Assembly: GCF_900129235.1 (NCBI RefSeq) | Contig: NZ_FQUV01000001.1 | Location: 62,001 to 126,000, forward strand | Direction of reading: 5' to 3' | DNA: 64,000 nucleotides | Source of the DNA: Litoreibacter ascidiaceicola | Lineage (GTDB): Bacteria; Pseudomonadota; Alphaproteobacteria; Rhodobacterales; Rhodobacteraceae | Part shown: piece after piece, positions 24,379-52,425 of the stretch | How the letters are laid out: each line of letters begins with the position of its first letter | Numbering within the stretch: position 1 is the first letter of the stretch | Translations under genes and position numbers: made by a program | Notes under the pieces: model-generated | Told to the model about the DNA's origin: nothing | The model's database searches: none | Seen by the model: only the letters and a program-made list of their open reading frames with translations

Positions 24379-25974
24379 ATGTATCAACACCCCGGCGTCT
24401 ACATCGAACACGTCCCCTCAAATGCGTTGGCCATAGAAGCGGCCTCGACCTCCGTCACAGCCTTTATCGGTCATGTGCGGCGCGGCGCGCCCGTGACCAA
24501 ATCCGGCGGCACGCCCACCTTCATCACCTCGCCGTCTCAATACACCACGCTGTTTGGACCTGGTGACGGATCGGCAGGCGGGGTGAAGAACCTTGCGGCA
24601 GACAAAGTGGATTACTTCGGGTTGGCGGTGAACGCCTATTTCGCCAATGGCGGCACCAAGGCCTATATCGTTCCGGTCCAAGGGTCGGGTGGCACCAAAG
24701 CCTCCGCTCAACTGAAGATATCCGGCGCGACGGACCCGAAATCGGTGGCGGTCACCGCCAAGGACAACGGCACATGGGCTAACGATCTCATGGTGACGAT
24801 GTCCAGCGACAAGGACGCCAAGACCTTCTCCATCACCGTTGGAACATGGGCCGCCCAGCCCGATGGGACCAAAAAACTTGATCAGGTCATCGAGAGCTTT
24901 ACCGGCCTTGAGTGGGAAGTTGGCGACGGAACTGCCGCCGCAAAGCTGAAAGCCGCGACCGATCTGGCAACCGAAACCATCAAGAAGGGCTCTACCCTGA
25001 TTGAGGTCGCGTTCGGTGCCGATGTCGACATGCCTTCATCTGACAAAGAGGTGAGCGACATCACCACAAGCGGTGCAGACACCGCAGCCCCCGCAAAGGC
25101 GCAATATACCGAAGCACTGGGACAGCTTGAGGATTACCGTGATGTCTCCATCATCGTGCTGCCTGATGTAAAACCCGATACCGCCGGCAAGGTCATCTAT
25201 CAGGAAGCCATCGGCCATTCCGAAAAGATGCAAAACCGGATGGTCATCGTCGATCCGGGCGACGCGGCGATCACCACACCCAAGGAAGCCAAGGACGCGG
25301 TTTTCACCAACTCGCCCTATGCCGCGCTGTATTACCCGCGCGTCAATATCGGCAACCCGCATTTCGACGCGGAGCTTGCCCCTGACCAACCCCGCAGCTT
25401 CCCCGTTGGCCCTGCTGCCGTGGCCGCAGGCATGTGGGCGCGGATTGATGGCACCCGCGGCGTCTGGAAAGCCCCCGCAGGTCTGGAGGCCGGTGTGCGT
25501 GGCACGTTCGGCCCCGAACGGCTGATCGGCAATGGCGTGCAGGACAACCTCAACGAATGGGGTGTGAACTGCCTGCGCTCCATCACCGGCCCGACGGTCA
25601 TTTGGGGTGCACGCACCACCGCGACGAAGGCCAAACCGCAATACCGGTATATCTCGGTCCGACGGACGCAAAACATGATCGGTGAAAGCCTCTACAATGC
25701 CTTGCAGGCCGTGGTGTTCGAGCCGAACGATCACAAGCTTTGGGGCGGATTACGCGCCTCGGTCGGCAACTTCATGGATGGGCTGCACCGCTCTGGCGCC
25801 TTTCAGGGCGAAAAAGCCAGCGACGCCTATTTCGTCAATTGCGGCTTGGGCTCCACCATGACGCAAGGCGACATTGATGCAGGTATCGTGCGGGTTGCCG
25901 TAGGGTTCGCGCCGTTGAAACCCGCCGAGTTTGTCGTTGTCCAGATCAGCCAGAAAGTCGGGCAGACGGCTTAG
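24379..25974 (+). CDS. Contractile injection system tail sheath protein
   Basis: Forms the contractile outer sheath of a phage-tail-like particle. The 531-residue product starts YQHPGVYIEHVPS, the typical sheath N-terminus that meets the neighbouring subunit, and ends with the conserved sheath core (WGGLRASVGNFMDGLHRSGAF, FVNCGLGSTMTQGDIDAG, VVQISQK). Residues about 80-240 are an insertion domain with variable sequence. ATG 24379 is preferred over upstream frames on homology and AAGGAG. It is the first gene of the array; only one sheath gene is present, unlike Afp/PVC systems with several. Confidence 0.95.
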   Translation: MYQHPGVYIEHVPSNALAIEAASTSVTAFIGHVRRGAPVTKSGGTPTFITSPSQYTTLFGPGDGSAGGVKNLAADKVDYFGLAVNAYFANGGTKAYIVPVQGSGGTKASAQLKISGATDPKSVAVTAKDNGTWANDLMVTMSSDKDAKTFSITVGTWAAQPDGTKKLDQVIESFTGLEWEVGDGTAAAKLKAATDLATETIKKGSTLIEVAFGADVDMPSSDKEVSDITTSGADTAAPAKAQYTEALGQLEDYRDVSIIVLPDVKPDTAGKVIYQEAIGHSEKMQNRMVIVDPGDAAITTPKEAKDAVFTNSPYAALYYPRVNIGNPHFDAELAPDQPRSFPVGPAAVAAGMWARIDGTRGVWKAPAGLEAGVRGTFGPERLIGNGVQDNLNEWGVNCLRSITGPTVIWGARTTATKAKPQYRYISVRRTQNMIGESLYNALQAVVFEPNDHKLWGGLRASVGNFMDGLHRSGAFQGEKASDAYFVNCGLGSTMTQGDIDAGIVRVAVGFAPLKPAEFVVVQISQKVGQTA

Positions 25975-26029
25975 GGCCGACAGCGTGAACTTTCAGACCT
26001 AAAGCATTTCCGAAAAAGGATTTTATCCA

Positions 26030-26542
26030 ATGCCAGCCCCTATGTTTCCTGCCAATGCCCACCGCTATGACCCTTACCGGACCTTCAAGTTCCAAGTTGT
26101 GATCGGTGGTAAAACCATCGCAGGCTTGTCGAAGATGGGCGCCCTGAAAAAGACCACCGAGGTGGTCAACTGGCGCGCTGCCGGTGATCCCAGCTACCAA
26201 CGCGCCATGCCCGGCGGCACCAAGTTCGAGAACGTCACGCTGGAGCAAGGCCTCAGCCATGACCCCGCGTTCGAAGAATGGGCCAATTCCGTCAACAACG
26301 TGGCCGATGGTGACGCAGGCATGAGCCTTCTGAACTTCCGCCGCGACGTGGTGATCAATGTGCTGAACCTGCAAGGCACACCGGCCATTTCCTATGTGCT
26401 TCGTCGGGCCTTCGTAACCGAATACCAAGCCCTCCCTGAACTGGACTCAAACAGCATGAATGCCGTTGGAATTCAGTCTGTTACCCTCGCCTATGAAGGT
26501 TTCACCCGTGACGCCGCTGTGGCCGAGCCCGCAGAGTCCTAA
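26030..26542 (+). CDS. Contractile injection system inner tube protein
   Basis: Forms the inner tube pushed out upon contraction. The 170-residue product has the family's layout: HRYDPYRTFKFQVVIGGKTIAGLSKMG, then EVVNWRAAGDPSYQRAMPG and FENVTLEQGLSHDPAFEEW, matching the T4 gp19/Afp1-type conserved-hypothetical tube family. AAGGA lies 11 bases before the start. It is separated by 55 bases from the sheath gene, the largest gap inside the array, and overlaps the next start by one base (TAATG). Confidence 0.93.
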   Translation: MPAPMFPANAHRYDPYRTFKFQVVIGGKTIAGLSKMGALKKTTEVVNWRAAGDPSYQRAMPGGTKFENVTLEQGLSHDPAFEEWANSVNNVADGDAGMSLLNFRRDVVINVLNLQGTPAISYVLRRAFVTEYQALPELDSNSMNAVGIQSVTLAYEGFTRDAAVAEPAES

Positions 26543-27330
26543 TGCCCGACCGCGCCCCAATTACCCTTGCCGTTGGCTTCCCAACAGCAACCCCCCGTGC
26601 CTTGACGGGGCGGGTCGAACTTGCTTTGGCCAGCGCCTTACGCCTGCCGACCCGCCCCGAGCAGGTGAGCGGCGTTTTGGGTGCGGTCTTTACAACCATC
26701 GGTGGCCTGCCAGTAACCAGTGATCTCGTCGACCGTCTGGCCACCGGTGCCCGTGCGTGGTGTCTCATCCGCGCGGCACTGTCCTTCCTGCCGGGCATGC
26801 GCTGGTTTCAGGCCAGCTGTACGTCCTGCGGGGAGGCTTATGATCTGTCCGTCTCGCTGGCCGACACCCCGCGCTCGGATATCCCGTCCGCGTTTCCGGT
26901 TGTCGAAGTCGACACCTCGCTTGGCCCGTGCCGCTTCGAGGTACCGAACGGGTCAACCGAGCGGGCCTTGGCCCGCGTCAAGAGCTCCGACGCCCCGCGG
27001 GTTCTGGCGGCAACCTGTGGACTGGGGCCGGATGCGGTGACCCAAGCCGAGCAATTCACCGCGTCCGATCTGGCATTGATCGACGCGCAGCTGGACGCCG
27101 CAACACCGGATATTCCTGACACGCTCACCACCCTCTGCCCCACCTGCGAGGCCGAAACGACGGCCCGGATTGACCCGCTCAGCTTCGCTTTTCCGGACGC
27201 GACAGCGGTGCTGCGCCATGTCCATTCCTTGGCCTCGGCCTATCATTGGAGCGAGGACGCGATCCTTGATCTGCCCACAGGCCGACGCAAAGCCTACGCC
27301 AGTCTGATAGCCGAAGGGGCGCGCCGATGA
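26542..27330 (+). CDS. eCIS-associated protein with two CxxC pairs
   Basis: A 262-residue protein with no named family that I can recognise with certainty. Two cysteine pairs, CTSC (Cys93/Cys96) and CPTC (Cys199/Cys202), probably bind one zinc. The late segment VLRHVHSLASAYHWSEDAILDLPTGRRKAYASLI resembles the end of T4-type baseplate hub assembly chaperones (gp26-like), where a short helical region follows a zinc-binding part. It lies right after the tube gene and is coupled to both neighbours (TAATG before, ATGA after), so a role in assembly is likely. Function otherwise unknown. Confidence 0.55.
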   Translation: MPDRAPITLAVGFPTATPRALTGRVELALASALRLPTRPEQVSGVLGAVFTTIGGLPVTSDLVDRLATGARAWCLIRAALSFLPGMRWFQASCTSCGEAYDLSVSLADTPRSDIPSAFPVVEVDTSLGPCRFEVPNGSTERALARVKSSDAPRVLAATCGLGPDAVTQAEQFTASDLALIDAQLDAATPDIPDTLTTLCPTCEAETTARIDPLSFAFPDATAVLRHVHSLASAYHWSEDAILDLPTGRRKAYASLIAEGARR

Positions 27331-28313
27331 GCCTGTTGACCCGCCTTCTGCCCCGTGCGGGTCATAACACCAGTGCTTTGGCGCGGCCCAAAGGCATCGC
27401 CCGTCAACGCGATCCTGCCGGATTGGCGCACCCCTTGAGCAGGACGGACGACGAAGAGGCGCAACCTTTGCGACGTACCGACGAAGGCGACGAGGCCAGC
27501 CCGTTACATCGCGCTCCACATGCTCCGTTGCAGCGAACGGAGGAAGAGGAGCCCGCTCAGCCGTTGCACCGCACGAAGGACGAGGACGCGCAACCGCTGC
27601 ACCGCGCGCCGGAGGACGAGGCGCAAGCCCTGCATCGCAAAGTTGAAGATGAGGCGCAGCCCCTTCACCGCCTTGAGGAGGAAGAGGCAGCGCAACCGCT
27701 CCACCGCGCAGAGGATTTGGAGGAAGCGCAACCGCTGCACAGAACTCAGGATGAAGAGGTGCAACCGTTGCACCGCACGCAGGCCGCGCGCGCAGCGCAG
27801 GACGATATGCAACCCCTGCACCGCGCGGAGGAAGACGACGCGCAACCCCTGCGCCGCATGGAAGAAGAGGCGCAGCCACTTGCCCGCATGTCGCCGCCGG
27901 ATGACCAGCAGCTATCGGCGCAGAACAGCCCGAAGCCTGCCGCGCTTTCCAGCATGGATGACCAGCCACCCGCGATGACGTTGCGCCGCGAGCAAGCAGC
28001 GAGCGCACCGATGGGCGCTTCCACCGCGACACCGGTCGCACCGCCCATGACCGAAGCCGGACCCTTGCCGCAGGCTGAGCCGGCCATCGCGCAATTCGAT
28101 CAGGTCGAGCCAAGCTCCACAGAGCCGGACCCGCAGCCTCCTGCCCGATTTGACCCACCACAGCAGTCACTGCTCGCAGCCGAAGGCCCCGCCAAGGTGG
28201 TCATAGATCAGGTCGACGTGGTCATCCACGAACCCGCCCGCGCATCAGCGCCCGCAGCCCCCATGGCGGACCTCTCCGCGATGGCGCGCCGCCGCTATCT
28301 AGGGGGGGTCTGA
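27327..28313 (+). CDS. Acidic QPLHR-repeat protein of the eCIS operon
   Basis: A 328-residue protein. Residues about 34-188 are some 14 tandem copies of a unit like AQPLHRxEDEE, 10-16 residues each, giving an acidic, probably extended chain with regularly spaced LHR. Residues 189-300 are Pro/Ala/Gln-rich and disordered-looking; the end (MADLSAMARRRYLGGV) looks conserved and may anchor the protein. Similar LQR-acidic repeats occur, as I recall, beside DUF4157 domains in other eCIS loci, but here they form a separate gene with no DUF4157. Coupled to both neighbours. Role unknown: scaffold, length ruler or cargo carrier are options. Confidence 0.6.
   Translation: MSLLTRLLPRAGHNTSALARPKGIARQRDPAGLAHPLSRTDDEEAQPLRRTDEGDEASPLHRAPHAPLQRTEEEEPAQPLHRTKDEDAQPLHRAPEDEAQALHRKVEDEAQPLHRLEEEEAAQPLHRAEDLEEAQPLHRTQDEEVQPLHRTQAARAAQDDMQPLHRAEEDDAQPLRRMEEEAQPLARMSPPDDQQLSAQNSPKPAALSSMDDQPPAMTLRREQAASAPMGASTATPVAPPMTEAGPLPQAEPAIAQFDQVEPSSTEPDPQPPARFDPPQQSLLAAEGPAKVVIDQVDVVIHEPARASAPAAPMADLSAMARRRYLGGV
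27426..27890 (+). repeat. In-frame degenerate coding repeats (QPLHR units)
   Basis: About 14 units of 30-48 bases built around a core encoding CAACCGCTGCACCGC-like words separated by Asp/Glu codons. Units differ by synonymous changes and by length, so the array is old and held by protein-level selection rather than being a recent expansion. Confidence 0.8.
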
Positions 28314-28314
28314 G

Positions 28315-29274
28315 ATGGCGATTGACGCAAGTTCCCTCTCCGTCGCCATGCAGGGCTTTGCAGATCATTTGGCGGCGAACTTCACGCAGGATGTGACCGT
28401 CACCGTCGAAAGCCCAAGCGCGGCGGCGGACCAGGCCAAAGGGTCGGACAAAGCCGTCCTTAACGTCTTTTGCTACCGGATTTCACCGTCTGGCATCCAT
28501 CCCGATCTGTCCCCGAACGAGCCGACATTCATCCGCGCCCATGTGCTGCTGACCGCCTTTTCCAACGCCACTGATGCGGCGATCAAGGACAAGGACTTAC
28601 GGGTGCTTGGCCATGCGGTGCGCGTGCTGCAATCGCAGCCCGTGATCCCGACCATCCTGCCCGGTGGTGTTCCGGCCCCCGAGGTCAGCCAGTACCGCCT
28701 TCAAGCCGTGCTGCAAGCCACCGAGATGGAGGAGATGAACCATATCTGGTCCATCCAAGGCAGTGAAATCTCTTACCGTTTATCAGTGGCTTACGAGCTG
28801 GCCCTCATCCCGGTTGAGCCACTGGCCTACCTGACACCGCCATCCCCTGTGCAAAGCGTGGTTCTGGATCTGGGCGCGGACGTTTTGCCCGACGCTGAAA
28901 TCGGCGCAACCCCCATCGCTATCACCGCACCGGATGCGCCTGTGAACTGGCTTCCGTTCTCGATGATCCGCTCCGGCGACGCGCTAAGCTCCGATGTCAC
29001 CGTCCCAGCCGGCGCGGCACAGGTGCAACTCGCCATCGCCGGCCCTGAGGGCGAGGCCGTTCAAGTCACAGTGGCTTGGACCCGCGCCGACGGAACGCCC
29101 CAGTCGCAAGCGGCCCAAGCTGCGAGCGCTGCGGCCATGGCCCTCGACCTAGACACACCGACCGCAGCGGTGGCACTCGACAGTGCGGCCAGCGGCGACG
29201 TGGCAACGCTTATCGTGCGGCCTGACGGGGCGGACATGCCCGCAGGAAACACAGTTCGGGTGGTGGTGACATGA
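28315..29274 (+). CDS. DUF4255 / Pvc16-like tail terminator protein
   Basis: Expected to cap the tube-sheath distal end, as Afp16/Pvc16 do. The 319-residue product begins with a DUF4255 domain (about residues 5-185): LNVFCYRISPSGIHPD, FIRAHVLLTAFSNATD, LGHAVRVLQSQPVIP and SYRLSVAYELALIPVEP are typical. The C-terminal half is Ala/Val-rich with beta-sandwich-like pattern, variable in this family. The stop precedes the AAA+ gene by ATGA overlap, an arrangement seen in other eCIS clusters. Confidence 0.85.
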   Translation: MAIDASSLSVAMQGFADHLAANFTQDVTVTVESPSAAADQAKGSDKAVLNVFCYRISPSGIHPDLSPNEPTFIRAHVLLTAFSNATDAAIKDKDLRVLGHAVRVLQSQPVIPTILPGGVPAPEVSQYRLQAVLQATEMEEMNHIWSIQGSEISYRLSVAYELALIPVEPLAYLTPPSPVQSVVLDLGADVLPDAEIGATPIAITAPDAPVNWLPFSMIRSGDALSSDVTVPAGAAQVQLAIAGPEGEAVQVTVAWTRADGTPQSQAAQAASAAAMALDLDTPTAAVALDSAASGDVATLIVRPDGADMPAGNTVRVVVT

Positions 29275-30656
29275 ATATCGAAGCCCCGACCCCCGCAACC
29301 GCCGAATTGCTGTCCTCCGCCATGGATCTGGAATGGGCACGGCTGCACGACATGCTGTCATTGGCTGAAGCCATGCGCACGGGTGCCGCCCTTGATGACG
29401 ACTTCGCAGACCGCTTCGCCGCCCTGTCCACCAGCGTCTCCGAAACCCGCGCGGCGGGCAGCTGGCAAGGGCTCAGCGCGATGATTTCCGGCGATGTGCT
29501 GGAGCAACTGACGCCGCAAGACCTGGACCTGATGGCCTTGGCTTTGGCCCCCGTGGCCCGTCCCGCCTTCGCCCCGCGCATCCAGTCCTTGCAGCCCCAG
29601 CTTGGCACACCTTGGCCCGGCTTGGCCTTTGTTCAAGAGCTGCTGATGCTGGAAACCAGCGACGAGATCGCCGCATTGATCGCCCGTCTGACCCCCACAT
29701 CGCCTTTGGTGGCATCCGGATTGCTGAAAATCGAAGGCACGACACCGTCCCAGACCCTGCGCCCCGGCCCCGTTTTGATCAGAGCGATGCTGGATCGCGA
29801 CCCTGAACTGTCCCCCCCGCCCGGCGCGTCCCTTTCGACCTTGCGCGGCGCATGGGATCAACTGGTGCTGCCCGCCCCGACCCTACGCCAGCTCCGCGAG
29901 TTCGGCGCTTGGGTGGAACACCGCCACGCCATGACCCGCGATTGGGGTGCGCGCGCTGTGCATGGCCCGCTGGCGCTGTTCTCGGGCGCGTCCGGTACTG
30001 GCAAAAGTTTCGCGGCAACCGTGCTGGCAACGGAGCTGGGCGAGCGAACGGGAGAGCCTTGGGCACTCTACAGCCTCGATCTGGGGCGGATCATGTCGAA
30101 ATATGTCGGCGAGACCGAAAAGAACCTCAACGCGCTTTTGGACAGCCTGGAGGGCCGCAACGCCATCCTGCAAATCGACGAGGCGGACGGGCTTCTGGGC
30201 AAGCGTGGCGAGGTTAGCGATGCCCGTGACCGTTACGCAAATCTTGAGGTCAGCCACATGCTGGCGCGGTTCGAGCGGCATTCCGGTCCCGTGATCCTGA
30301 CCACCAACCTGCGGGCCAACGTAGACCCCGCCTTCCTGCGCCGCTTCCAACTGGTTGTGGATTTCCCGACGCCCGACGACGCAGCGCGCGCTGCCTTGTG
30401 GAAGGTGCTTCTGCCCCCCAAAGCGCCGCTCGCGACGCGGGTCAAGTTGGACTCCCTTGGCGCGGCGGTCCGTTTGTCCGGCGGCTCCATCGCCAATGCG
30501 GCGACCTATGCCGCCGTGCTGGCCTATGCAGACACTGGCACCATCGACTTGCCACATATTGCCCGCGCGATCTGGGCCGAACTGACCAAAGACACAAGGC
30601 AAGTTCGCCCATCTGAAATCGGATATCTTGCTGATTATCTAAAGGTTACGACATGA
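29271..30656 (+). CDS. AAA+ ATPase of the eCIS (Afp15/Pvc15-like)
   Basis: A 461-residue cytoplasmic ATPase, needed in related systems for particle assembly or cargo loading. The N-terminal 200 residues are helical and system-specific. The AAA+ module follows: Walker A GASGTGKS (residues 239-246), Walker B ILQIDEADG (Asp303/Glu304), sensor region VILTTNLRANVDPAFLRRF and arginine finger candidates in RRFQLVVDFPTPDD. It resembles the CDC48/FtsH-type AAA module of Pvc15. Coupled at both ends by ATGA. Confidence 0.9.
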   Translation: MNIEAPTPATAELLSSAMDLEWARLHDMLSLAEAMRTGAALDDDFADRFAALSTSVSETRAAGSWQGLSAMISGDVLEQLTPQDLDLMALALAPVARPAFAPRIQSLQPQLGTPWPGLAFVQELLMLETSDEIAALIARLTPTSPLVASGLLKIEGTTPSQTLRPGPVLIRAMLDRDPELSPPPGASLSTLRGAWDQLVLPAPTLRQLREFGAWVEHRHAMTRDWGARAVHGPLALFSGASGTGKSFAATVLATELGERTGEPWALYSLDLGRIMSKYVGETEKNLNALLDSLEGRNAILQIDEADGLLGKRGEVSDARDRYANLEVSHMLARFERHSGPVILTTNLRANVDPAFLRRFQLVVDFPTPDDAARAALWKVLLPPKAPLATRVKLDSLGAAVRLSGGSIANAATYAAVLAYADTGTIDLPHIARAIWAELTKDTRQVRPSEIGYLADYLKVTT

Positions 30657-30865
30657 AGCTAAAGCGCCTCACTGTGAAACTTCCTGCCTCGATGGCTGCG
30701 ACCGCGTCCCATGACGCCCGCGCCATTGCCGAAGCCGTGGGCCAAGCCTTGGCCAAGGGCGCACAACCCAATGGCCCGATCACAATCCAAAGCCACGGGC
30801 AAAGGGGCGCGGTTCTGGCCAGTCAGGTCACCTCCGGCTTGAAAGGCGGGCGCAATGGCGGTTGA
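30653..30865 (+). CDS. Small eCIS protein, unknown
   Basis: A 70-residue basic protein (LTVKLPASMAATASHDARAI...) with a predicted amphipathic helix and a glycine-rich end. Start and stop both overlap neighbours (ATGA with the ATPase gene, 11 bases with the next gene), so it is very likely translated. Short proteins at this place occur in other eCIS operons, but I cannot name a family. Confidence 0.6.
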   Translation: MKLKRLTVKLPASMAATASHDARAIAEAVGQALAKGAQPNGPITIQSHGQRGAVLASQVTSGLKGGRNGG

Positions 30866-31484
30866 GACCAAAGGAATGCTGTTCGAATACGGGCTGACGA
30901 TCCCGCCGCTGGCGCTGGTCTTCAAGTTCAACCCGCAAGAAATCAGCCGTTCGCGCACTGTTACGGTCAAAACCGGCGATGCGCCGGGGTCGCGCGGTGG
31001 CTATGACTTCCTGTCGCCGCTGGAAACCTCCCGCGTCGCGCAAGGCGTTGAAATGCAGGCGGAAAGCTTCTCGGTCACCATCCTGCTGGATGCCACCGAC
31101 GCGCTGAATGACGGGGACGCAATCGCCAAAACCTTTGGCGTACAGCCGCAGATTGACACGCTCCGCTCCATGGCGGAACCCAAAGCACAAGGTCCCGGCG
31201 GTGTGAAAGTGCTGGCCTCGCTCGGCCTGTCCGGCGCGCGGGCGTTCGAGCGGGATGAAACCGCCTCGGTGCTGGTATTCGCGTGGGGGATGCAACTGCT
31301 TCCGGTGTTCCTGACAGGCGTGACCCAAAAAGAGACGATGCACCTGCCCAACCTGATGCCCTACCGCGCCGAAATGGGGCTGACGATGCAAGTGATCGAA
31401 AGCGCCAACCCATTCTTCCTTGCCGACAAGGTGCGCCAGACCATTGGCACAGGGTTGAACCTCGCATCCGGATTGGGGGCCTAA
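30855..31484 (+). CDS. CIS tube-initiator-like protein (baseplate-tube adaptor)
   Basis: A 209-residue protein of the CIS tube/Afp7 type that joins tube and hub. Diagnostic stretches are LVFKFNPQEISRSRTV, GVEMQAESFSVTILLDATDA and GMQLLPVFLTGVTQKETMH, which alternate like a tube-fold beta-barrel. The start (ATG 30855) overlaps the end of the 70-residue gene. It is followed after four bases by the LysM-like gene, a pairing seen in phage tails where a tube adaptor precedes the gpX-like LysM protein. Confidence 0.8.
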   Translation: MAVETKGMLFEYGLTIPPLALVFKFNPQEISRSRTVTVKTGDAPGSRGGYDFLSPLETSRVAQGVEMQAESFSVTILLDATDALNDGDAIAKTFGVQPQIDTLRSMAEPKAQGPGGVKVLASLGLSGARAFERDETASVLVFAWGMQLLPVFLTGVTQKETMHLPNLMPYRAEMGLTMQVIESANPFFLADKVRQTIGTGLNLASGLGA

Positions 31485-31488
31485 CGCG

Positions 31489-31824
31489 ATGGCATTTTTC
31501 AAAGGCAGCTACTACGAAACCACCGCCCTGTTCGAGCCACCAGAGGATGGCACACGCGGCTTTCGCGGCGTGCGGGGGCGCGCAATCGCGAACCCCGAAG
31601 CGGTGCTGGAACATAGCGTCGCCGTGGGTGACCGTCTCGACCAGATGGCGCAAAATTACTACGCAAATCCAAGGGATTGGCGGCGGATGGCGGATTGCAA
31701 CGCGGAGGTGATGTTCCCCGAAGATATGGTTTACGGGCCAGATGGCCACCCAGACAAGCCCGAAGTCGCAGCCGAGAAAACCGGCACCACGCTGCTTGTC
31801 CCGCGTCGGCGGGAGGTGCGTTGA
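31489..31824 (+). CDS. LysM-like baseplate protein (tail protein X type)
   Basis: A 111-residue protein. VAVGDRLDQMAQNYYANPRDWRRMADCN is the LysM pattern (GDxLxxIAxxxYGxxxxWxxIxxxN), and the end TGTTLLVPRRREV matches its last strand. In contractile tails such a protein sits around the spike hub. The N-terminal 35 residues are extra. Its stop overlaps the next ATG by one base (TGATG). Confidence 0.8.
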   Translation: MAFFKGSYYETTALFEPPEDGTRGFRGVRGRAIANPEAVLEHSVAVGDRLDQMAQNYYANPRDWRRMADCNAEVMFPEDMVYGPDGHPDKPEVAAEKTGTTLLVPRRREVR

Positions 31825-32993: not shown

Positions 32994-33003
32994 GGAGGCC
33001 GAA

Positions 33004-33828: not shown

Positions 33829-34226
33829 TGTCCCAATATGAAAGCACCCTACCGCGTGTCGGCTACATGGCCTTCCCCTTTCGCATCACGGAAAACGGGG
33901 CCGCACAGGTCGCAAGGTTCGACCATATCCGCCAGCAGGTGGAGCAGGTTCTGTTCACCTCGCCGGGCGAGCGGGTGTTCCGCCCCGAATACGGCTTCGG
34001 CGCACGCCAGCATGTGTTCGAGCCGAACGCCGTGGGCTTGTGGGAACTGGCCCAAAACCGTCTTTACGGCGCGTTGTCGGAAGCGCTGGCCGGAGAGGTT
34101 GACCCGAAAACCATCCGCGTCGATATCGGCGCGCCACCGGACCAGCCCGAGGTGTTGATGGTCCAGATCAGCTACACCATCGCGGCGCTTGCCCGCGAAG
34201 AAACCCATAGATTTGAGGTGACGTGA
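33828..34226 (+). CDS. gp25/GPW-family baseplate wedge protein
   Basis: A 132-residue wedge protein that starts sheath polymerisation. The family core is clear: VRQQVEQVLFTSPGERVFRPEYGFGARQ-type stretch (seen as EQVLFTSPGERVFRPEYGFG), FEPN, and the glutamate-rich lysozyme-like fold. Overlaps both neighbours by one base (TAATG, TGATG). Length fits gp25. Confidence 0.92.
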   Translation: MSQYESTLPRVGYMAFPFRITENGAAQVARFDHIRQQVEQVLFTSPGERVFRPEYGFGARQHVFEPNAVGLWELAQNRLYGALSEALAGEVDPKTIRVDIGAPPDQPEVLMVQISYTIAALAREETHRFEVT

Positions 34227-40051: not shown

Positions 40052-40064
40052 AGAGGGATTTCAG

Positions 40065-43487: not shown

Positions 43488-43502
43488 GGTGCTGGCAGGG
43501 TC

Positions 43503-46500
43503 ATGAAAACCAAGGCGCGCACAGTCACAAGAACGGCCCGGCCCTCGCGGTCCGTGGTGCCTGTACGCAGACCTCAACCTGCGATCCTGCGCCCTGCGCC
43601 GCCTGTGTTGAGCCCCAGCCTGACGGTGGGCGCGGTCAATGATCCGGCAGAGCGGGAAGCCGAAACCATGGCTGCGCGCGTTGTCGGTGCAACACCTGCG
43701 CGCGTAGCCCCTGTTGCCGTCGCAGCCCCCGCAACGGCCGCAGCCCTCCGGCGCGACGCCGAGGCCCAGCCGAACCTTGACGAGTTAACCCACGTTCCGG
43801 CCCCTGCGGACCAACAGGATTTCGACCTCCCCGCCGAAAATGACGTAGCGACCGAAGGGCTGGACGCCGCCGATATGGGGGAACTCGAAAGCGGCGCGCC
43901 CGTTGACACCGGCGGCGCGGCGGAGGGCGAACTTCAGGCTTCCGCATCGCCCACTGCGGTCGTCGGGCGCATGGGCGGCCCTGCCCCGTCCGATGTGTCG
44001 CGGCTGGTTGCCAATCCCGGCCCTGGCCGCCCGCTGCCCAGCGGCGTGCGCGCGCGGATCGAGCCGCATTTCGGCACCAGTTTCGAAGATGTGCGGCTGC
44101 ATGATAGCCCCGCTGACCAAGACGCCGCCGCCCGCATCGGCGCGCGCGCCTTTGCCCATAAGAACCGTATCTGGCTTGGCCGTGGGGAAAGCCCCACCAA
44201 TACCCGTCTGATGGCGCATGAGTTGACCCATGTGGTGCAACAAACCAAAGGGGCCGAGGCCCTGCCCCTGCGCTGCGAGCCCGTCCGGCGCGAAGAAGCC
44301 CCTGAAGCTGGCGGCTTCGGCAGCGGCGCCATCGAGGCGCTCGCCCGCTACGTTCCGGGCTATACGCTGATCACGGTAATCATGGGCCGCACGCTGTTCT
44401 CGGGCAAAAAGGTGCTGAAAACCGCCACCAACCTGCTGGGTGGCCTCTTTGGTCTGCACCCGCTTGGCACCGTCCTGTTCGACAAGTTGCGCGAGACCCG
44501 TATGGTCGAGGAAGCGTTCCAATGGGTGCAAACCCGCCTCGGCGATTTGAACCTGACATGGTCACGCCTCAAGGGGGTGATCGCCAAAGCCCTCAGCCCG
44601 CCGCTTTTGGGCGCGAAAGAGTTCATCATGGAGCAGTTCCTGCCCCTTGTCCGTGACATCGGCACTTTCGCGGTGGATGTGGGCAAGAAGGTGTTGGAAT
44701 TCACCGTGCGCGGCGCATTGAAACTGGCGGGGCCTTACGCCGACAAGGTTTGGGCGATCATCCAGCAAGCCGGTGACGTTCTGGATCTGATCGTCGAGAA
44801 CCCGCTCGCTTTTGCCAAAAACCTGATCAAGGCCGTCGTCGGCGGCTTCATGAAATTCGGGACCAACATTTTGCAGCACCTGAAGAAAGGTCTGCTTGGT
44901 TGGTTGTTCGGGGCCATTGCGGGCGCAGGGATCACCCTGCCCGCCAAGTTCGACTTCAAAGGGCTGATGTCGCTGGTCATGCAAATCCTCGGCCTGACCT
45001 ACGCCACCTTCCGCGCGCAACTGGTCAAGCAACTGGGCCCGTCAGGGGAACGCAAAGTGGCGCTGATTGAAAAATCGGTCGAGATCGTGCGGGTCCTGTT
45101 GAAAGAAGGCTTCGCGGGCATCTGGCAGAAAATGCTGGAGATGATCGAGAACTTCAAAGCCACCCTGATCGGCGGCATCTCCACCATGGTGATCACGACG
45201 GTGATCAAAGCGGGGATTTCATGGCTGGCAGGCTTGTCCAATCCCGTGGGGGCCGTGGTGAAGGTGGTCTTGGGCATCTACGATCTGATCGTGGCCTTCA
45301 TCGAGCGGCTGCAACAGATCATGGATGTGGCGCAGTCTATCTTCTCGTCTGTCGGGGCCATTGCGCGCGGCCAGACCGAGGCGGCGGCCAACTTTGTCGA
45401 GCAAACCATCGGGCGCACGGTGCCAGTGGTGATTGCTTTCCTCGCCGCAGCCTTGGGGCTTGGAGGTATTTCGTCGAAGATCAAGGCGGTGATCACCAAG
45501 CTGCAAGCGCCTGTTAAAAAGGCGATGGGCAAGATGATCGCCTTCGTGATCAAGAAGGCCAAGGCGCTGTTCTCTAAACTGATCGGCAAGCTGAACGGCA
45601 AGCGCAAGCTGCCGTCCAAAGCGTTCAAGATCGGGCGCACGCCTCACACGATCTTTGGCAAGAAAGTTGGCCGCAAGATTGAGGTCTACATGGCCAGCGA
45701 GGAAGGACCGCTGAAAGGCAAAGGCCCCGCCACCAACGACGCGACCAAGGATATCGACGACAAAACCGCCACCGAGCGATCCAACAAGCTGGAGAAATCC
45801 AGCAACGAATCCACCGAGGAAACGACCGCGGAAACCAAAGGGCTCGACCCGCAATCCGAAAAGCAGAACAACAAAACCAAATTTGCGGCCCTACACGCTG
45901 AACTTGAAGAGGCAGCAGCGGAATTCGAATTGTTGGGGCGCGACATCGAAACCGACCCGTTCCTTGACACCGACGGAGACGGCCAAGCGCTGCTGCGCGC
46001 GCAAGAGCCGCGTTCGGAGACCTTTGAGGGTGAGGTTGACACCTATAGCAAGTTGACTTTTGCCGCCTCGAATAAGGACCCCATAAAAGGCTTTCACCTG
46101 TCGCGGTTCTACGAGTTGGACCACACCATCGAAAAGCGCTTCCCCTTGGGCGTGTTCGAGCAACTGCACACGCTCAACGATCTGTCCGCCACACCGCAAC
46201 CCGATACCCAATTCCTGCGCGCGTCTCGCAAAGCCAAGGCTGAAAAATCCGGTGTGAACCCGTTGCCCGGCACCAGTCTGGATGCCAGCGTTCAAAAAGG
46301 GGCCGCCCCTGTGCTTGGTTTGCTCAACAGCAAAGCCACCGGTGATAAAATCGGGCCGGATGCGGGCGGCTTTCCTGCCATCGCGCTCTATCACCGCAAC
46401 CACATCAATCTTAAAGGCAAAGGTCTGCCGAACGCAGCCGCCATCGTCGCCAGCGCGATGAAAAAGAAGACCGTCCCCGAAAGGATCAACGACGTTAAAT

Positions 46501-47396
46501 CCGCGATCAGGGCGCAGCTGAACGCCGAGGCTGCGGAGGTTCAGAAGATATACAATTCCGACCCCACCGCGACCGAGACGGTTAAGGCGAAAGTAAGCAA
46601 AGGTCTCGCCAACCTGAAGGCGCAGAACATCGCACTTTACGGGCTTGACCGCATCCAGCCCAAACGCCCCGAACACAAGATCGACGAGGTCGCCACCAAA
46701 GACGGCAGCGACATCTATTTCGAGGGCGGTCAGGCCGGTGGCGACAACCTGATCAAAATCGAAGGTATCGGCAAAAAATACGGATCACGCACCGCAGGCT
46801 TGGGCGATTTTATCGAGTATGACCACATCCTTGATAAGTCCTTCGTTCATGCGGCCAAATCCCACAAAATCGTCGACCCAAACGAGAAGCAGACGGTCAA
46901 ACTGGCCTCGGACAAGAACGCCACAACAAAGCTGCAATCGCGTCTGGATCGCTTGGCGGAACTCGAGGCGACGCCGCTATTTGCCGACAAGCCGAAGATT
47001 TTGGGTTATAAAGATGATGACGGCTTTGCCGTGCCGATTTACCGCCCCTTGGCGACCGAGGTGACCTTGGCAGTCAAGCACCCCGCCGACACACAAACAG
47101 CACCGGTGGACACCAAGGGCTTTACCAACGACGCGGCGGAGTATGTCAGATCGGGCGTCCCGCAAGCCCGGCTTGATTTTGTCGCCAAGAAGCGTGTCGC
47201 GATCCAGCGTGTTTTGGAAGCGCGCACCACCACCCACGCCGATGCCGTGCGGGAGGTGTATTTGCCAGAGGTCGCGAAGGTGAAAGCGATCAATACCGAC
47301 GCCGACGGCGCCGACCGCAAGATGAAAGTTGTATTAAAGAACCTCTATGTTTCCCTGAGAAAAGCGGAATCCGAGACCGTTAAGCTCTTCCAATAA
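43503..47396 (+). CDS. DUF4157 (eCIS core domain) protein with hydrophobic middle and HNH-like end
   Basis: A 1297-residue protein. Residues 1-35 are Arg/Pro-rich; VNDPAEREAETMAARVV (about 40-56) and the stretch from 177 to 250, ending in HELTHVVQQ (His239, Glu240, His243), form the DUF4157 domain common in eCIS cargo. Residues about 290-720 are long hydrophobic/amphipathic helices. The C-terminal part (about 730-1297) has DH at 873-874 (YELDHTIEKRFP), HRNH at 964-967 and DH at 1107-1108 (EYDHILDKSF), recalling HNH/toxin-type nuclease folds, possibly duplicated. Likely a cargo toxin; the helical middle could also act as tape measure. Confidence 0.7.
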   Translation: MKTKARTVTRTARPSRSVVPVRRPQPAILRPAPPVLSPSLTVGAVNDPAEREAETMAARVVGATPARVAPVAVAAPATAAALRRDAEAQPNLDELTHVPAPADQQDFDLPAENDVATEGLDAADMGELESGAPVDTGGAAEGELQASASPTAVVGRMGGPAPSDVSRLVANPGPGRPLPSGVRARIEPHFGTSFEDVRLHDSPADQDAAARIGARAFAHKNRIWLGRGESPTNTRLMAHELTHVVQQTKGAEALPLRCEPVRREEAPEAGGFGSGAIEALARYVPGYTLITVIMGRTLFSGKKVLKTATNLLGGLFGLHPLGTVLFDKLRETRMVEEAFQWVQTRLGDLNLTWSRLKGVIAKALSPPLLGAKEFIMEQFLPLVRDIGTFAVDVGKKVLEFTVRGALKLAGPYADKVWAIIQQAGDVLDLIVENPLAFAKNLIKAVVGGFMKFGTNILQHLKKGLLGWLFGAIAGAGITLPAKFDFKGLMSLVMQILGLTYATFRAQLVKQLGPSGERKVALIEKSVEIVRVLLKEGFAGIWQKMLEMIENFKATLIGGISTMVITTVIKAGISWLAGLSNPVGAVVKVVLGIYDLIVAFIERLQQIMDVAQSIFSSVGAIARGQTEAAANFVEQTIGRTVPVVIAFLAAALGLGGISSKIKAVITKLQAPVKKAMGKMIAFVIKKAKALFSKLIGKLNGKRKLPSKAFKIGRTPHTIFGKKVGRKIEVYMASEEGPLKGKGPATNDATKDIDDKTATERSNKLEKSSNESTEETTAETKGLDPQSEKQNNKTKFAALHAELEEAAAEFELLGRDIETDPFLDTDGDGQALLRAQEPRSETFEGEVDTYSKLTFAASNKDPIKGFHLSRFYELDHTIEKRFPLGVFEQLHTLNDLSATPQPDTQFLRASRKAKAEKSGVNPLPGTSLDASVQKGAAPVLGLLNSKATGDKIGPDAGGFPAIALYHRNHINLKGKGLPNAAAIVASAMKKKTVPERINDVKSAIRAQLNAEAAEVQKIYNSDPTATETVKAKVSKGLANLKAQNIALYGLDRIQPKRPEHKIDEVATKDGSDIYFEGGQAGGDNLIKIEGIGKKYGSRTAGLGDFIEYDHILDKSFVHAAKSHKIVDPNEKQTVKLASDKNATTKLQSRLDRLAELEATPLFADKPKILGYKDDDGFAVPIYRPLATEVTLAVKHPADTQTAPVDTKGFTNDAAEYVRSGVPQARLDFVAKKRVAIQRVLEARTTTHADAVREVYLPEVAKVKAINTDADGADRKMKVVLKNLYVSLRKAESETVKLFQ

Positions 47397-47420
47397 AACA
47401 AAATTAATTTGGAGAATAAC

Positions 47421-48587
47421 ATGCCCCTAGCCCCCGCCTCCTCCGACCTTGGCTTCTTCCGCTCCTCCGAGAGCCGCGACAGCAAATATGACCCCGCCGC
47501 CATCGGTCTTGCGTTTTCCGGCGGTGGCTACCGTGCATCCCTGTTTCATGCGGGCGCGGTGATCCGGCTTAACGAGTTGGGCATTCTGTCCAAGGCGTCC
47601 CGCATTGCCTCGGTCTCCGGCGGCTCGATCACCACGGGCATCTTGGCAATGAACTGGGACAAGATCGACTGGAACGGCAAGTCCGAAGGCGTCGCCACCC
47701 ACGAGGCGATGACCGAACATTTCATCAAGCCACTGATGGACGCCACGGCGCTCAACATCGACGTGGGCGTCTCGATCCTCGGATTTGTGCCGGGCATCTC
47801 GGGGGGCAACCAGTTGGCCCGCAGCTATGACAAGCATATCTTTCACAACAAAAAGCTGAACACCATCACAGGCAGCCGCCGCTTCCTGTTTTGCGCGGCG
47901 AATTTGCAAACCGGCGGGTTGGTGCGGTTCACCAAGGAATATGTGGCTGACTGGAAGGCGTTCTTCTCGACCACCCACAACATCAAACTCAGCGAGGCAG
48001 TCGCCGCATCGTCCGGCTTTCCGCCCATTCTGGCCCCCCTGCGCCTTGATCTGAGCGGCGAGACCGTCACCGCGCCCGCAGGGGCAATGTATGACAACGA
48101 AGCGCTGCGCAAGAACCCCGTGCTGGTCGATGGCGGTGTGTATGACAATATCGGGTTGGAGCCGATCTGGAAGCGCTGCGGCATCCTGATTGCCTCCAAC
48201 GCAGGGTCCAACAACCCCGCCATGGTATCGCAATTCCGGCTGGGCATGATGATGCGCGTGGTCAACACCTTCCTTGATGTGTCGGTGAACTGGCGCGAGC
48301 GGATGCTGGTCAACATGTTCCGCAACCAGTTGGCTGACGGGCTGAAAGAACGCAACGGCGCGTTCTGGACCATCAAAACACCGACGCATAACCTTGCTTG
48401 GGACGGTTTCAAGGCCAGCCCTGCGCAGTTGAAAACGGCAGGCGACATGGCGACACGACTGAAAAAGTTTCCGGTCGAAACCCAACGCGCGGCGGTGCTG
48501 GCAGGCTATTCCTACGCGGATGGCACGATCCGCCAGTTCGTTCTGCCCGATGCGCCCGCACCAACAGCGGCTCCGGTGCTTCCATGA
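47421..48587 (+). CDS. Patatin-like phospholipase, candidate eCIS cargo
   Basis: A 388-residue serine lipase of the patatin fold. The oxyanion loop GGGYRA (about residues 34-39), nucleophile block SVSGGSITTG (Ser65) and dyad Asp237 in LVDGGVYDN are all present, so it should be active on lipid acyl esters. The usual GxSxG has Ser in place of the first Gly, as in other bacterial SVSGGS members. No signal peptide, so delivery by the particle is plausible. ATG 47421 follows TTGGAGAATAAC; the TTG itself is an alternative start. Followed by the peptidase gene with ATGA overlap. Confidence 0.85.
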   Translation: MPLAPASSDLGFFRSSESRDSKYDPAAIGLAFSGGGYRASLFHAGAVIRLNELGILSKASRIASVSGGSITTGILAMNWDKIDWNGKSEGVATHEAMTEHFIKPLMDATALNIDVGVSILGFVPGISGGNQLARSYDKHIFHNKKLNTITGSRRFLFCAANLQTGGLVRFTKEYVADWKAFFSTTHNIKLSEAVAASSGFPPILAPLRLDLSGETVTAPAGAMYDNEALRKNPVLVDGGVYDNIGLEPIWKRCGILIASNAGSNNPAMVSQFRLGMMMRVVNTFLDVSVNWRERMLVNMFRNQLADGLKERNGAFWTIKTPTHNLAWDGFKASPAQLKTAGDMATRLKKFPVETQRAAVLAGYSYADGTIRQFVLPDAPAPTAAPVLP

Positions 48588-50797
48588 CGCCGGAGTTCCG
48601 CCCGCCACGCAGGCTGAACGTCTTCGCGTTCGATCCCTCCACCGCGCGCAGCTTTGCCAACTGCAACGCGCGCACCGTTAAGATTACCCTGCCCTACGAG
48701 CTGGACCCGCCTGATCTGGGCAAACCCTTCTACGGGCCGAAAGGTAAATATGTGGAGGTGGTGGATTTCGACCCCGCAAGCGGGGCGTTCTATGCGCCGG
48801 TGAACCTCAATGATGATGCGGTGATGTTCAATGACGGGCTGCCGCCCTCGCCCGAGAACCCGCAATTTCATCAGCAAATGGTCTATGCGGTGTCAATGAA
48901 CACCATCGCCGCCTTCGAGGAGGCGTTGGGCCGCGTCGTCCAATGGGCGCCCACCGAGAAGAAGATCGAGCGCAAAGGCAAAGACCCCGAATGGACCTAT
49001 GATTTCACCCGCCGTCTGCGCATCTATCCGCACGCATTGCGCGAGGCCAACGCTTATTACCATCCCGCAAAGAAAGCGCTGCTGTTCGGCTATTTCACCG
49101 CAGGCCCAGACAGCACCAGCGCGCCGTCAGGCACCACAGTGTTCACCTGCCTGAGCCACGACATCATCGTGCACGAAACGGTGCATGCCATCCTCGACGG
49201 GCTGCATCCGACCTTCGCCGAGGACGCCAATCCTGACATGCGCGCGCTGCATGAAGCCTTCGCCGACATCATCGCGCTGTTCCAACTTTTCTCGTTCCCT
49301 TCGGTGCTGGAGGAGCAAATCGCCAAAACGCGAGGCGATCTGAGCCGCCAGAACCTGTTGGGTGAGCTTGCCCAAGAATTCGGCCAAGCGGTCGGGCGCG
49401 GCTGCTCGCTCCGCGATTTTCTGGGCAGCGTGAACGAACATGGCGTCTGGGAAGCGCAGGAACCCGACCCGACCAAACTGCGCGACGCCACAGGTCCGCA
49501 TGACCGTGGCGCGGTGCTGGTCGCGGCTGTCTTCCGCGCCTTCCTGACGATCTACAAAACCCGCGTAGGCGATCTGTTCCGCATCGCCTCGAACGGCTCC
49601 GGCGTGTTGCGTGACGGGGCGATCGATCCTGACCTGAAACGCCGCCTCGCCTCCGAGGCCGCGCAATGCGCGCGCCGCGTCATGCGCATTTGCATCCGCG
49701 CGATGGACTATACACCGCCCGTGAATGTCAGTTTCGGCGACTATCTGCGCGCCATCATCACCGCCGACCGCGACCTGTTCCCCGAAGACGCGCAAGGTTA
49801 CCGCGCGGCGTTTATCGAGGCGTTCGCAAGTTGGGGCATCCTGCCCGAAGGCATCGCCTCGATCTCAGAGCCGGCCTTGTGCTGGCCAACGCTGGACATT
49901 GCCGAGGCCGACCGTCAGGCGCTGCGTGGCATCTCGGAAGACATGAGCTGGCTCGACAAAATCCACTCCAATCTGGGGTTGATGCTGTCCCAGCCCCGCA
50001 AGATGCTGTCGCATTTCGCCAGCCCGATGAGCATTGACGGCGAAGATCGCCGCGCCCGTTACCAAGAAGAGGTGAAGCGCGCGCAAGTCGAAGCCCAGCA
50101 GGTCGGCATTCTGATCCATGACCGCCTGACCCGCTTCAATGATGCCAGCACCACCATGACCGTGAAGGAAAAGGTACCGGCACGGGCGTTGCAGCTGGAT
50201 GTGAACCTGTTGGAGGTCGATGACAGCCGCGACCGCGAGATTGTCTACCACGCTTCCAGCCATTACCAGCGGTTGCTCTGGTTGCTGATGAACTCTGCCA
50301 GCTCTCCTCGGTTTGCCGAACTGACCGGCCTGACTTTTTCACCTGACGCACCTGCCACCGTACGCAGGTCCCGCACAACATTGCTGCCCTCGCTTCATGT
50401 CTCGGCGGTGCGCATTGCCCGCAGGCAGGGCCAGCGCGGCCAGCCGGAACGCGAATATGTCATCGAGGTGATCCAGACACGGCGCGGCTACTTTGATCCC
50501 GATCGTCAAGCCCATGAGGATGCGCGGCCCATTGACCCCAAAGATTCCGACCGCGCCAGCGATTTCAAATTTCGTGCCGGAACGACCTTTCTGGTGGATG
50601 CCCGCAGCTTCAAAATCCGCCGCTTGATCCGCTCCACCTATGCGGTTGACGATCCCGACGGGTTGACTGCGTGCCGCGCCTATGTGGATGGCACCGACGC
50701 GCAGGCGGCCAATGCGTTTTACTCCGGTCGTTCCTCTCGTGCGGCAGCGTTCGCCGATCTGCACCATCCGCCCCATATCAAGGACGGTTTCCGATGA
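48584..50797 (+). CDS. HExxH metallopeptidase-like protein, candidate eCIS cargo
   Basis: A 737-residue protein with a thermolysin-type zinc site: HETVHA (His197, Glu198, His201) followed by HEAFAD (Glu224 as third ligand candidate), a gluzincin layout. An N-terminal region (about 1-190) with FNDGLPPSPENPQFHQQMVYAVSMNTIAAFE resembles the pro/peptidase start of M4-like enzymes. The second half (about 380-737) has no motif I recognise. No signal peptide. Overlaps the patatin stop and the next start (ATGA both), so the three enzymes are translated together. Confidence 0.75.
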   Translation: MTPEFRPPRRLNVFAFDPSTARSFANCNARTVKITLPYELDPPDLGKPFYGPKGKYVEVVDFDPASGAFYAPVNLNDDAVMFNDGLPPSPENPQFHQQMVYAVSMNTIAAFEEALGRVVQWAPTEKKIERKGKDPEWTYDFTRRLRIYPHALREANAYYHPAKKALLFGYFTAGPDSTSAPSGTTVFTCLSHDIIVHETVHAILDGLHPTFAEDANPDMRALHEAFADIIALFQLFSFPSVLEEQIAKTRGDLSRQNLLGELAQEFGQAVGRGCSLRDFLGSVNEHGVWEAQEPDPTKLRDATGPHDRGAVLVAAVFRAFLTIYKTRVGDLFRIASNGSGVLRDGAIDPDLKRRLASEAAQCARRVMRICIRAMDYTPPVNVSFGDYLRAIITADRDLFPEDAQGYRAAFIEAFASWGILPEGIASISEPALCWPTLDIAEADRQALRGISEDMSWLDKIHSNLGLMLSQPRKMLSHFASPMSIDGEDRRARYQEEVKRAQVEAQQVGILIHDRLTRFNDASTTMTVKEKVPARALQLDVNLLEVDDSRDREIVYHASSHYQRLLWLLMNSASSPRFAELTGLTFSPDAPATVRRSRTTLLPSLHVSAVRIARRQGQRGQPEREYVIEVIQTRRGYFDPDRQAHEDARPIDPKDSDRASDFKFRAGTTFLVDARSFKIRRLIRSTYAVDDPDGLTACRAYVDGTDAQAANAFYSGRSSRAAAFADLHHPPHIKDGFR

Positions 50798-52425
50798 CCA
50801 AGCCCCCCACCCCCCGCATCAAAGCCCCGAAATCCGGCGTCCGCGTGCGCATGTATCGCCAAGGACACGGCGACTGCTTCCTGCTGACTTTCCGACGCAG
50901 TCGAGGGGCCAAGCCGTTCTTTATGTTGATCGACTGCGGGCGCAAGAAAGGCAGCACCCCTGCCGACCTGAAGGACAAAGACATCGACATGGATGCGGTG
51001 ATCGAGGCGCTGTGGGTCGACACAGGCGGCAAGCTGGACGTGGTCGTGGTTACCCATGAACACGAAGACCACGTTTCTGGCTTTCCCAAAGCGGGCGACG
51101 ACAGCCACCCGTTCTCCAAGTTCCATGTCGAGGATCTGTGGCTTGCATGGACCGAGGACGGCACCGATGCGGACGCCAACCGCTACCGCGAGCTTTATGG
51201 CGACAAGCTGTTAACCTTGGCGCTGGCGCATGAAAAGCTGCGGGCGTTGCAAGGCGTGGGCGCACCGGACGGTGTGGCCGACGAGATAGCCGAATTTCTG
51301 GAACTGGAAACCGGCCACCGCACCGGCGCGGAGGTACTAAAAGAAGCGTGCATCGAAATGGGCGTCGCCCCGCGCGACATCAGCGCAGGGCCGGAACAGG
51401 CCTTCGCCGCCGCGCGCAGCACCAAAATCCGCGGCAAGCGTTACAAGGAACGCCTTGCGGGGCTGCGCTCGATGGTGAAAGGCGAGATCAAGTTCCTGTC
51501 CCCCGGTGACCCGCCGCTCCCCCTGAAAGGCGTAAAAGGCGTGCGGGTCTATCCGTTCGGTCCGCCGCGCGATCAAAAGCTGTTAACCAGCCTGAACCCG
51601 CACCAATCCGAGGAATTCCACATCGGGCCTTTCGCCATGGGCGAGGCTGGCGCAGGGCTGTTCGCCGCCTTTGCCAGTGGCACAGAAGGCGCCACATCAT
51701 CGCCTTTTGCTCCGCGTTTCGTAATACGGCAAGACCAGATATCCGACAGTGTGGCCGAAGACGCGCCACCGGAACTGGCCTACCTTTCACGGACCTATCT
51801 GGCAGAAGACGACGCGGACCAACGCATCGACGGGGACTGGATGGGCGAAGCCGAAGCCTTGGCGTTGCGGTTGAATTCCGAGGTGAACAACACCTCGTTA
51901 GTGCTTGCTTTTGAACTGGAAAAGAGCGGTCGCACCCTGCTGTTTACGGGCGACGCGCAACGCGGATCATGGATGTCTTGGTCCGACCTGTCATGGCAAG
52001 TTGATGGCTCCACCGTCACCGCCAAAGACCTGCTGGCGCGCTGCACGTTCTACAAGGCCGGGCATCACGGCTCTCACAACGCAACGCTCAATGGTACGTT
52101 GGATAGCCCGCACGCCAACCTCAACTGGATGGCGCAAGGGGCTTACGCGCAGGATTTCGTCGCCATGGTGCCGTCGAACAAAACATGGGCTTGGGGCAAG
52201 TCGCGCCCGTGGCGTCACCCGATGAAGGCGATCGAGCACGCGCTGATCAACAAGACAAAATCCCGGGTGTTGATGATCGAGCCGCATGAGCCGGAGCGCC
52301 ACGACGCCCATTCAGGGGCAGAATTCGATGCGATGTGGGCCGCGTTTACGAAAGCAACAAAGGCCGAAGAATTCGCGATTGAGCATCTTGTTGAGGATAC
52401 CGAACCTGCCTCTGGTGAAACTTGA
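50794..52425 (+). CDS. Metallo-beta-lactamase-fold hydrolase (ComEC-like), candidate eCIS cargo
   Basis: A 543-residue MBL-fold enzyme without membrane segments. The start VRMYRQGHGDCFLLTF and the metal site THEHEDH (His88, His90, Asp92, His93), FTGDAQ (Asp387) and AGHHGSH (His424, His425, His428) fit the ComEC/Rec2-type MBL family, whose members cut nucleic acids or phosphoesters. A long insert (about 110-370) separates the first and later metal motifs. Last gene of the array; it converges on the FAD monooxygenase gene with a ten-base gap and no clear terminator. Confidence 0.82.
   Translation: MTKPPTPRIKAPKSGVRVRMYRQGHGDCFLLTFRRSRGAKPFFMLIDCGRKKGSTPADLKDKDIDMDAVIEALWVDTGGKLDVVVVTHEHEDHVSGFPKAGDDSHPFSKFHVEDLWLAWTEDGTDADANRYRELYGDKLLTLALAHEKLRALQGVGAPDGVADEIAEFLELETGHRTGAEVLKEACIEMGVAPRDISAGPEQAFAAARSTKIRGKRYKERLAGLRSMVKGEIKFLSPGDPPLPLKGVKGVRVYPFGPPRDQKLLTSLNPHQSEEFHIGPFAMGEAGAGLFAAFASGTEGATSSPFAPRFVIRQDQISDSVAEDAPPELAYLSRTYLAEDDADQRIDGDWMGEAEALALRLNSEVNNTSLVLAFELEKSGRTLLFTGDAQRGSWMSWSDLSWQVDGSTVTAKDLLARCTFYKAGHHGSHNATLNGTLDSPHANLNWMAQGAYAQDFVAMVPSNKTWAWGKSRPWRHPMKAIEHALINKTKSRVLMIEPHEPERHDAHSGAEFDAMWAAFTKATKAEEFAIEHLVEDTEPASGET

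Follow-up and report, generated by a model that had tools for sequence, protein, structure and literature searches.

Does the row of 20 genes at positions 24379-52425 of the DNA analysed here encode one extracellular contractile injection system (eCIS) with enzymes of its own, or two units in a single array? The window, i.e. the whole stretch of 64,000 nucleotides that was analysed, comes from Litoreibacter ascidiaceicola (assembly GCF_900129235.1, contig NZ_FQUV01000001.1, positions 62,001 to 126,000). An earlier sequence-only reading had described an unbroken plus-strand array, and all 20 open reading frames (ORFs) are indeed present on that strand, most of them overlapping or abutting. We consider it probable that they form two units, a complete eCIS (24379-47396) and an autonomous mobile conflict module (47421-52425). 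The first 17 genes are a complete eCIS gene set. The last three encode a patatin (47421-48587; PF01734, 6.4e-15), a candidate HExxH metallopeptidase (48584-50797) and a candidate pro-nuclease of the ComEC-like metallo-beta-lactamase (MBL) type (50794-52425); this triad is a separable module, separate from the eCIS.

The sequence-only reading had taken the three enzymes for the eCIS's own set, a view that fails because the triad occurs without an eCIS and because near relatives of the eCIS end before it. Among 295 genomes of the family the peptidase was found at 1e-10 in four, namely the window's genome and G153, both with the eCIS, and G171 and G082, which hold the whole triad and have no gpV match (G171 has no ATPase match either). 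In G171, a member of the same genus, the triad is bordered by the genes that also flank the window's array, with ABC transporter, LacI, beta-glucosidase and glucokinase genes (by eye) on one side and an FAD monooxygenase gene on the other; a PPK2-like gene (by eye) stands at the place of the eCIS, of which no clear remnant was seen. Either a loss of the eCIS in G171 or a gain elsewhere may account for this, the free copies adjoining the linked ones in the tree. In the stretches read of Shimia, G130, Halomonas, Nitrospirales and G035, neither a patatin nor a peptidase or MBL gene was found, and the place behind the DUF4157 gene is taken by other genes. The three genes were not seen in 80 ATPase loci either, but as the 10-kb flanks of these loci mostly fall short of the operon end, their absence there says little.

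Additional support comes from 26 loci without eCIS, comprising 11 genome stretches and 15 plasmid stretches (five out of a search that matched 62 records and ten out of one that matched 27). Peptidase and MBL genes occur together in 23 of them, and none of seven eCIS probes matched at any. The third partner nearby varies: a patatin in six loci, a subtilase in eight, an SMC-like ATPase in two and none of these in ten. Plasmids of rhizobia, Hymenobacter, Deinococcus and planctomycetes (L162-L166, L174-L183) carry the peptidase-MBL pair with its third partner swapped. A defence-type gene was recognised in seven of the 15 plasmid stretches, a figure for which no background rate was measured; Hachiman was confirmed by PADLOC, while SIR2, SAVED, MoxR, ThiF (two) and a caspase-family gene were assigned by annotation alone. 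In the other plasmid stretches no defence gene was recognised (e.g. L176), one of them being unannotated. By itself, the plasmid-borne pair is a candidate for a defence module.

The triad is nevertheless tied to the eCIS of this group, a link that raises the most interesting of the remaining questions. In all eight near loci (window, G1038, L. meonggei, G1039, G1041, a Paracoccaceae metagenome-assembled genome, or ParaMAG, G1053 and G153; the reading of G1038, G1039, G1041 and G1053 covered the ATPase and the end with DUF4157) peptidase and MBL genes lie directly behind the DUF4157 gene. The patatin gene is present in six and missing in G153 and G1053. In the window 25 bp separate the DUF4157 gene from the triad, with no plus-strand terminator pattern between them, and co-transcription of the two units is probable on this arrangement. 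Linked and free-standing proteins have nearly the same start, and no added leader or DUF4157 domain was seen in the linked ones. First trees, with four linked rows, had placed eCIS-linked peptidase and MBL proteins in one clade, an idea that was given up once free-standing copies from the family were included; in the fuller tree G153 pairs with the free G082 (98.3/98), and the free G171 stands beside the other linked rows (88.4/87).

What the three proteins might do can be approached from their motifs and folds. The peptidase, in which HExxH and HExFxD are conserved, has no match in Pfam, PADLOC, PHROGs or NCBIfam, and neither it nor the patatin has a sequence match in the PDB. The MBL protein has a ComEC-like MBL fold with its catalytic residues, as seen from motif conservation together with a structure model; the model spans 542 residues as compared with 266 for the ComEC domain, the predicted insertions including low-confidence stretches. 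Its sequence profile gave weak matches in the PDB (best Cas14, 3.6e-4; ComEC, 0.01). The Foldseek ranking differs from the ComEC-like assignment, which slightly lowers our confidence in the two-unit reading. If the triad acts like the published pairs of MBL pro-nuclease and protease, the metallopeptidase would probably cut the presumed gating insertions of the MBL protein, which once cleaved would cut DNA, while the patatin would attack membrane lipid. The module may in this way act against phages, as similar bacterial modules do.

Other roles for the triad have to be weighed. It could be cargo of the eCIS, the three enzymes being loaded into the tube and delivered together as toxins. Published eCIS toxins frequently have their genes at the operon's 3' end, adjoining DUF4157 genes, as stated in the part of PMC8213781 used here, and the triad has exactly this place in six of the eight near loci, its peptidase and MBL genes in all eight. 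Free-standing triads in the same family and even the same genus, the lack of a patatin in G153 and G1053, and linked proteins that have gained neither leader nor DUF4157 domain over their free-standing counterparts argue the other way, so that we hold a cargo role to be possible but rather improbable. The triad might also serve the producer, being co-expressed with the eCIS and killing or lysing its own cell to release the particles. The probable co-transcription would fit this idea, as would the lack of any lysis-family match in the scanned array proteins, and related nuclease-protease modules work through cell death or growth arrest according to the available part of PMC12799240. There is, however, no direct evidence for such lysis, triads without an eCIS must serve another purpose, and five relatives (Shimia, G130, Halomonas, Nitrospirales and G035) have no triad gene in the stretches read; we therefore regard it as unlikely. 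Equally tentative is the suggestion that an undescribed antiviral-type module, consisting of an HExxH protease and a gated ComEC-like pro-nuclease accompanied by a patatin, a subtilase or an SMC-like protein, has become incorporated into the eCIS operon and serves suicide upon infection or death of the producer for syringe release.

A further alternative concerns the eCIS itself, which might act within the producer cell, as in Streptomyces, instead of being released. A DUF4157 effector related to tape measures is known from such a system (the portion of PMC11126660 consulted), whereas the array encodes a DUF6519-like fibre candidate, just below the cut-off, and DUF6519 (eBAP5) is a fibre anchoring domain in what we used of PMC12923769. 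Intracellular action is accordingly doubtful in our view. The reading we prefer remains that of a complete eCIS followed by an autonomous mobile conflict module.

The evidence for the first of these units lies in its gene content. Family-library scans covered the array proteins except that of the 70-aa gene (30653-30865). Matches above the Pfam cut-off, all in this one locus, were obtained for the sheath (24379-25974; PF04984, 5.3e-10; PF17482, 1.2e-8; also PDB 9ezm at 4.1e-57, Pvc2 and Afp3), the gp19 tube (26030-26542; PF06841, 1.2e-36), the Pvc16 tube terminator with its DUF4255 or Pvc16_N domain (28315-29274; PF14065, 3e-20), the AAA+ ATPase at the Pvc15 position (29271-30656; PF00004, 1.4e-19), the CIS_tube adaptor (30855-31484; PF19266, 3.6e-7), the OB fold of the gpV-type spike (33004-33828; PF04717, 2.2e-17), gp25 (33828-34226; PF04965, 8.8e-14), the eCIS_core (DUF4157) protein (43503-47396; PF13699, 5.7e-23) and the patatin. 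PHROGs and NCBIfam, the latter with matches below cut-off, support the 111-aa gene (31489-31824; phrog_7145, baseplate wedge, 1.3e-4), the gpD-type hub (31824-32993, start picked by eye at MGLLDQ; phrog_196, 3.9e-9) and both baseplate J proteins (34226-35434; TIGR02243, 9.8e-17; phrog_6, 6.5e-4; and 35431-38424; TIGR02243, 8.4e-26; phrog_6, 1.6e-13).

Most components named from the sequence alone were thus recovered. The 111-aa protein, which occupies the position of a LysM baseplate protein and had been called one, has no LysM match nor any other in Pfam, and the gpI protein (38417-40051) was placed by synteny, its place being conserved in relatives and its sequence having no family match in Pfam, PHROGs or NCBIfam. 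The supposed PASTA-like protein (40065-43487) has to be renamed: its PASTA match is below the cut-off (E 0.046) and it is closer to DUF6519 (8.4e-5; 21.8 bits, cut-off 22.4) and DUF4815 (1.2e-4, below cut-off). Taken together, the unit would build a contractile particle in which the CIS_tube, 111-aa, gpD, gpV, gp25, J and gpI proteins form baseplate and spike and the DUF6519-like protein the fibre.

Sheath, tube and baseplate genes are common to eCIS, type VI secretion systems (T6SS) and contractile phages, so the array might be taken for a defective prophage or a T6SS. We consider this very improbable and, like the sequence-only reading, reject both. TssM has no match in the genome (the family search did not extend to TssJ or TssL), which contains a single sheath gene, and DUF4255, ATPase and DUF4157 genes are all present in the array. 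The array holds no capsid gene; the only PF05065 match of the genome is on the same contig on the minus strand, 73.6 kb past the end of the window and some 85 kb from the array (the family searches left out terminase and integrase). Capsid or terminase genes just outside the window, or linked TssJLM, had been named as grounds against an eCIS, and the PF05065 and TssM searches, the two that were run, gave none. In addition, the flanking ORFs in Shimia, Halomonas and L. meonggei look metabolic by eye, although terminase-like ORFs lie near the array's relative in G013. The distant capsid gene (G000:C7:199556-200410) is of HK97 type and possibly belongs to a gene transfer agent or a prophage.

PAAR, listed as an eCIS core domain in the available part of PMC8213781, was not found among the scanned array proteins; we treat it as a frequent but not obligatory part of eCIS. 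The one PAAR gene of this genome without TssM stands alone on another contig than the eCIS (G000:C11:196091-196297), and the array's spike ends in HxH instead. HxH tips of phage spikes bind iron. In 17 of 23 rows the gpV C-terminus carries HxH (any middle residue, by eye), and 10 of 23 if the pattern is restricted to H[TSNA]H. The stem of the spike matched chain 7aef_q (1.1e-6), whose entry includes a sheath chain as well, and phi92 gp138 (0.0019). Although gpD and gpV are separate genes here, the idea that a split spike is unique to this lineage was rejected, since among the 80 ATPase loci 20 are split and four fused, the other 56 having no plus-strand gpD/gpV pair to judge.

Two genes had been singled out as oddities, one for QPLHR repeats and one for paired CxxC motifs. 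The repeats and motifs are real, but the genes are present in relatives and are better described as components of the lineage. At the place of the QPLHR protein (27327-28313), 18 of 18 proteins from 18 clusters have a high content of disorder-promoting residues and a common C-terminal motif of VxIDxVDVVI type, mostly with a basic end; the motif was fitted on the same 18 proteins, so that the count is partly by construction, and clusters that break off ahead of this place or differ in gene order (e.g. G125, G001, G119) were not counted. Shuffled tails match at 0.0004 and none of the 19 other array proteins does. With limits on composition, length and end, one of 67 wider loci (plus-strand ORFs) matched, which makes the motif a marker of this lineage and not of eCIS at large. 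The protein probably serves as a disordered linker between two structural parts. The CxxC protein (26542-27330), possibly an assembly protein of T4-baseplate type with zinc ribbons, showed weak matches across seven rows including the window's (T4_baseplate in three, best 2.4e-4; DUF6760 in four, best 0.029), the window protein's own family matches not being significant. The 70-aa gene was seen only in the closest eCIS relatives read, with identities of 94% in L. meonggei, 61% in ParaMAG and G153, 52% in Shimia and 44% (partial) in Nitrospirales.

The DUF4157 protein of 1297 aa combines its domain with hydrophobic peaks and, by its conservation profile, a tape-measure-like middle. It matches proteins at a tape-measure-like gene position (a direct match to phage tape measures was not sought) and resembles the tape-measure-type eCIS effectors; it would fill the tube as tape measure and effector combined. 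Its tail, a duplicated DH...H motif without family match, is probably a nuclease; a fold search of this tail gave nothing decisive. One or two extra DUF4157 genes (about 436-496 aa) lie between the fibre and the large DUF4157 gene in L041-L044 with L137-L140, G153 (481 aa), G130 and G035, and none in the window or in L. meonggei; they are likely variable cargo.

Where else does this eCIS occur? The ATPase shares 92% identity with its counterpart in L. meonggei DSM 29466, which is placed in the window's genus and has a closely similar eCIS, and 58-69% with those of ParaMAG, Shimia, Halomonas rhizosphaerae and a Nitrospirales metagenome-assembled genome, among the best 80 of at least 575 confirmed relatives. 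L. meonggei and G1040 were counted as one genome, as were ParaMAG and G1044. Within the genus, 7 of 21 genomes (the window's included) have the ATPase at 70% identity or more; in a sample of the family gpV matched in 57 of 198 genomes, in many weakly. Of the ten strongest gpV genomes besides the window's, which were fetched for comparison, G153, G130, G035 and G013 are syntenic over the array; the remaining six are either more distant or cut short. In G013 (L028, L029) the fibre gene consists of two ORFs, and terminase-like and recombinase-like ORFs lie downstream on the opposite strand (by eye).

A tree built from eight structural proteins joined together (13 clusters, 2550 columns) groups the window, L. 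meonggei, ParaMAG and G153 (100/100), with Shimia next to them, then Halomonas, G130 and Nitrospirales; the ATPase-only tree places G153 and ParaMAG/G1053 weakly. The lineage is also found in Saccharospirillum, Desulfobulbaceae and Syntrophobacteraceae, and the position of the Nitrospirales and Halomonas copies among alphaproteobacterial ones suggests horizontal transfer. The supposition of a little-described marine alphaproteobacterial subtype therefore holds for a little-described lineage but not for its restriction to marine alphaproteobacteria.

What stands at the 3' end of an eCIS operon is often assumed to be cargo; comparing genomes of one genus that do and do not have the eCIS shows that genes in this place can form a separable unit. 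The triad is a candidate for a new type of nuclease-protease module; should its link with the eCIS be functional, it would tie cell-suicide modules to the release of the syringe, an open question in eCIS biology.

Compared with Afp, PVC, MAC, AlgoCIS and the Streptomyces CIS, the eCIS is a known type of system carrying lineage-specific parts: sheath, tube, DUF4255 terminator, AAA+ ATPase, CIS_tube, gp25, J and DUF4157 proteins are alike, while separate gpD and gpV genes (seen in other loci too), an HxH gpV tip without PAAR match, and a conserved disordered linker and zinc-ribbon protein set it apart. Tme, an effector of the Streptomyces davawensis CIS, is likewise a large DUF4157 protein with a hydrophobic tape-measure-like part but bears an EndA-like nuclease domain where the window's protein has the duplicated DH...H tail (PMC11126660, as far as available). 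For the triad, the closest likeness is to the pairs of HamMAB, Avs1, Lamassu, DRT and canu, in which a ComEC-like MBL protein with insertions is encoded beside a protease-like gene, in several contexts and sometimes near defence genes (PMC12799240, in the portion used). The main text of that paper contains no occurrence of 'contractile', 'patatin' or 'HExxH'; its fig. S2, on further protease families, could hold such a pair. Among the papers listed from the open-licence literature, none was recognised by title and abstract as tying an eCIS to such a module or as describing an HExxH partner. The triad differs from those pairs in its third gene (patatin, subtilase or SMC-like ATPase) and in its candidate partner, which has no sensor fusion and no family match and carries HExxH instead of being a trypsin-like or caspase protease, for which reason we say that it works like those pairs and do not file it as a member. 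In all likelihood the triad corresponds to such nuclease-protease pairs, with a metallopeptidase in the place of their protease.
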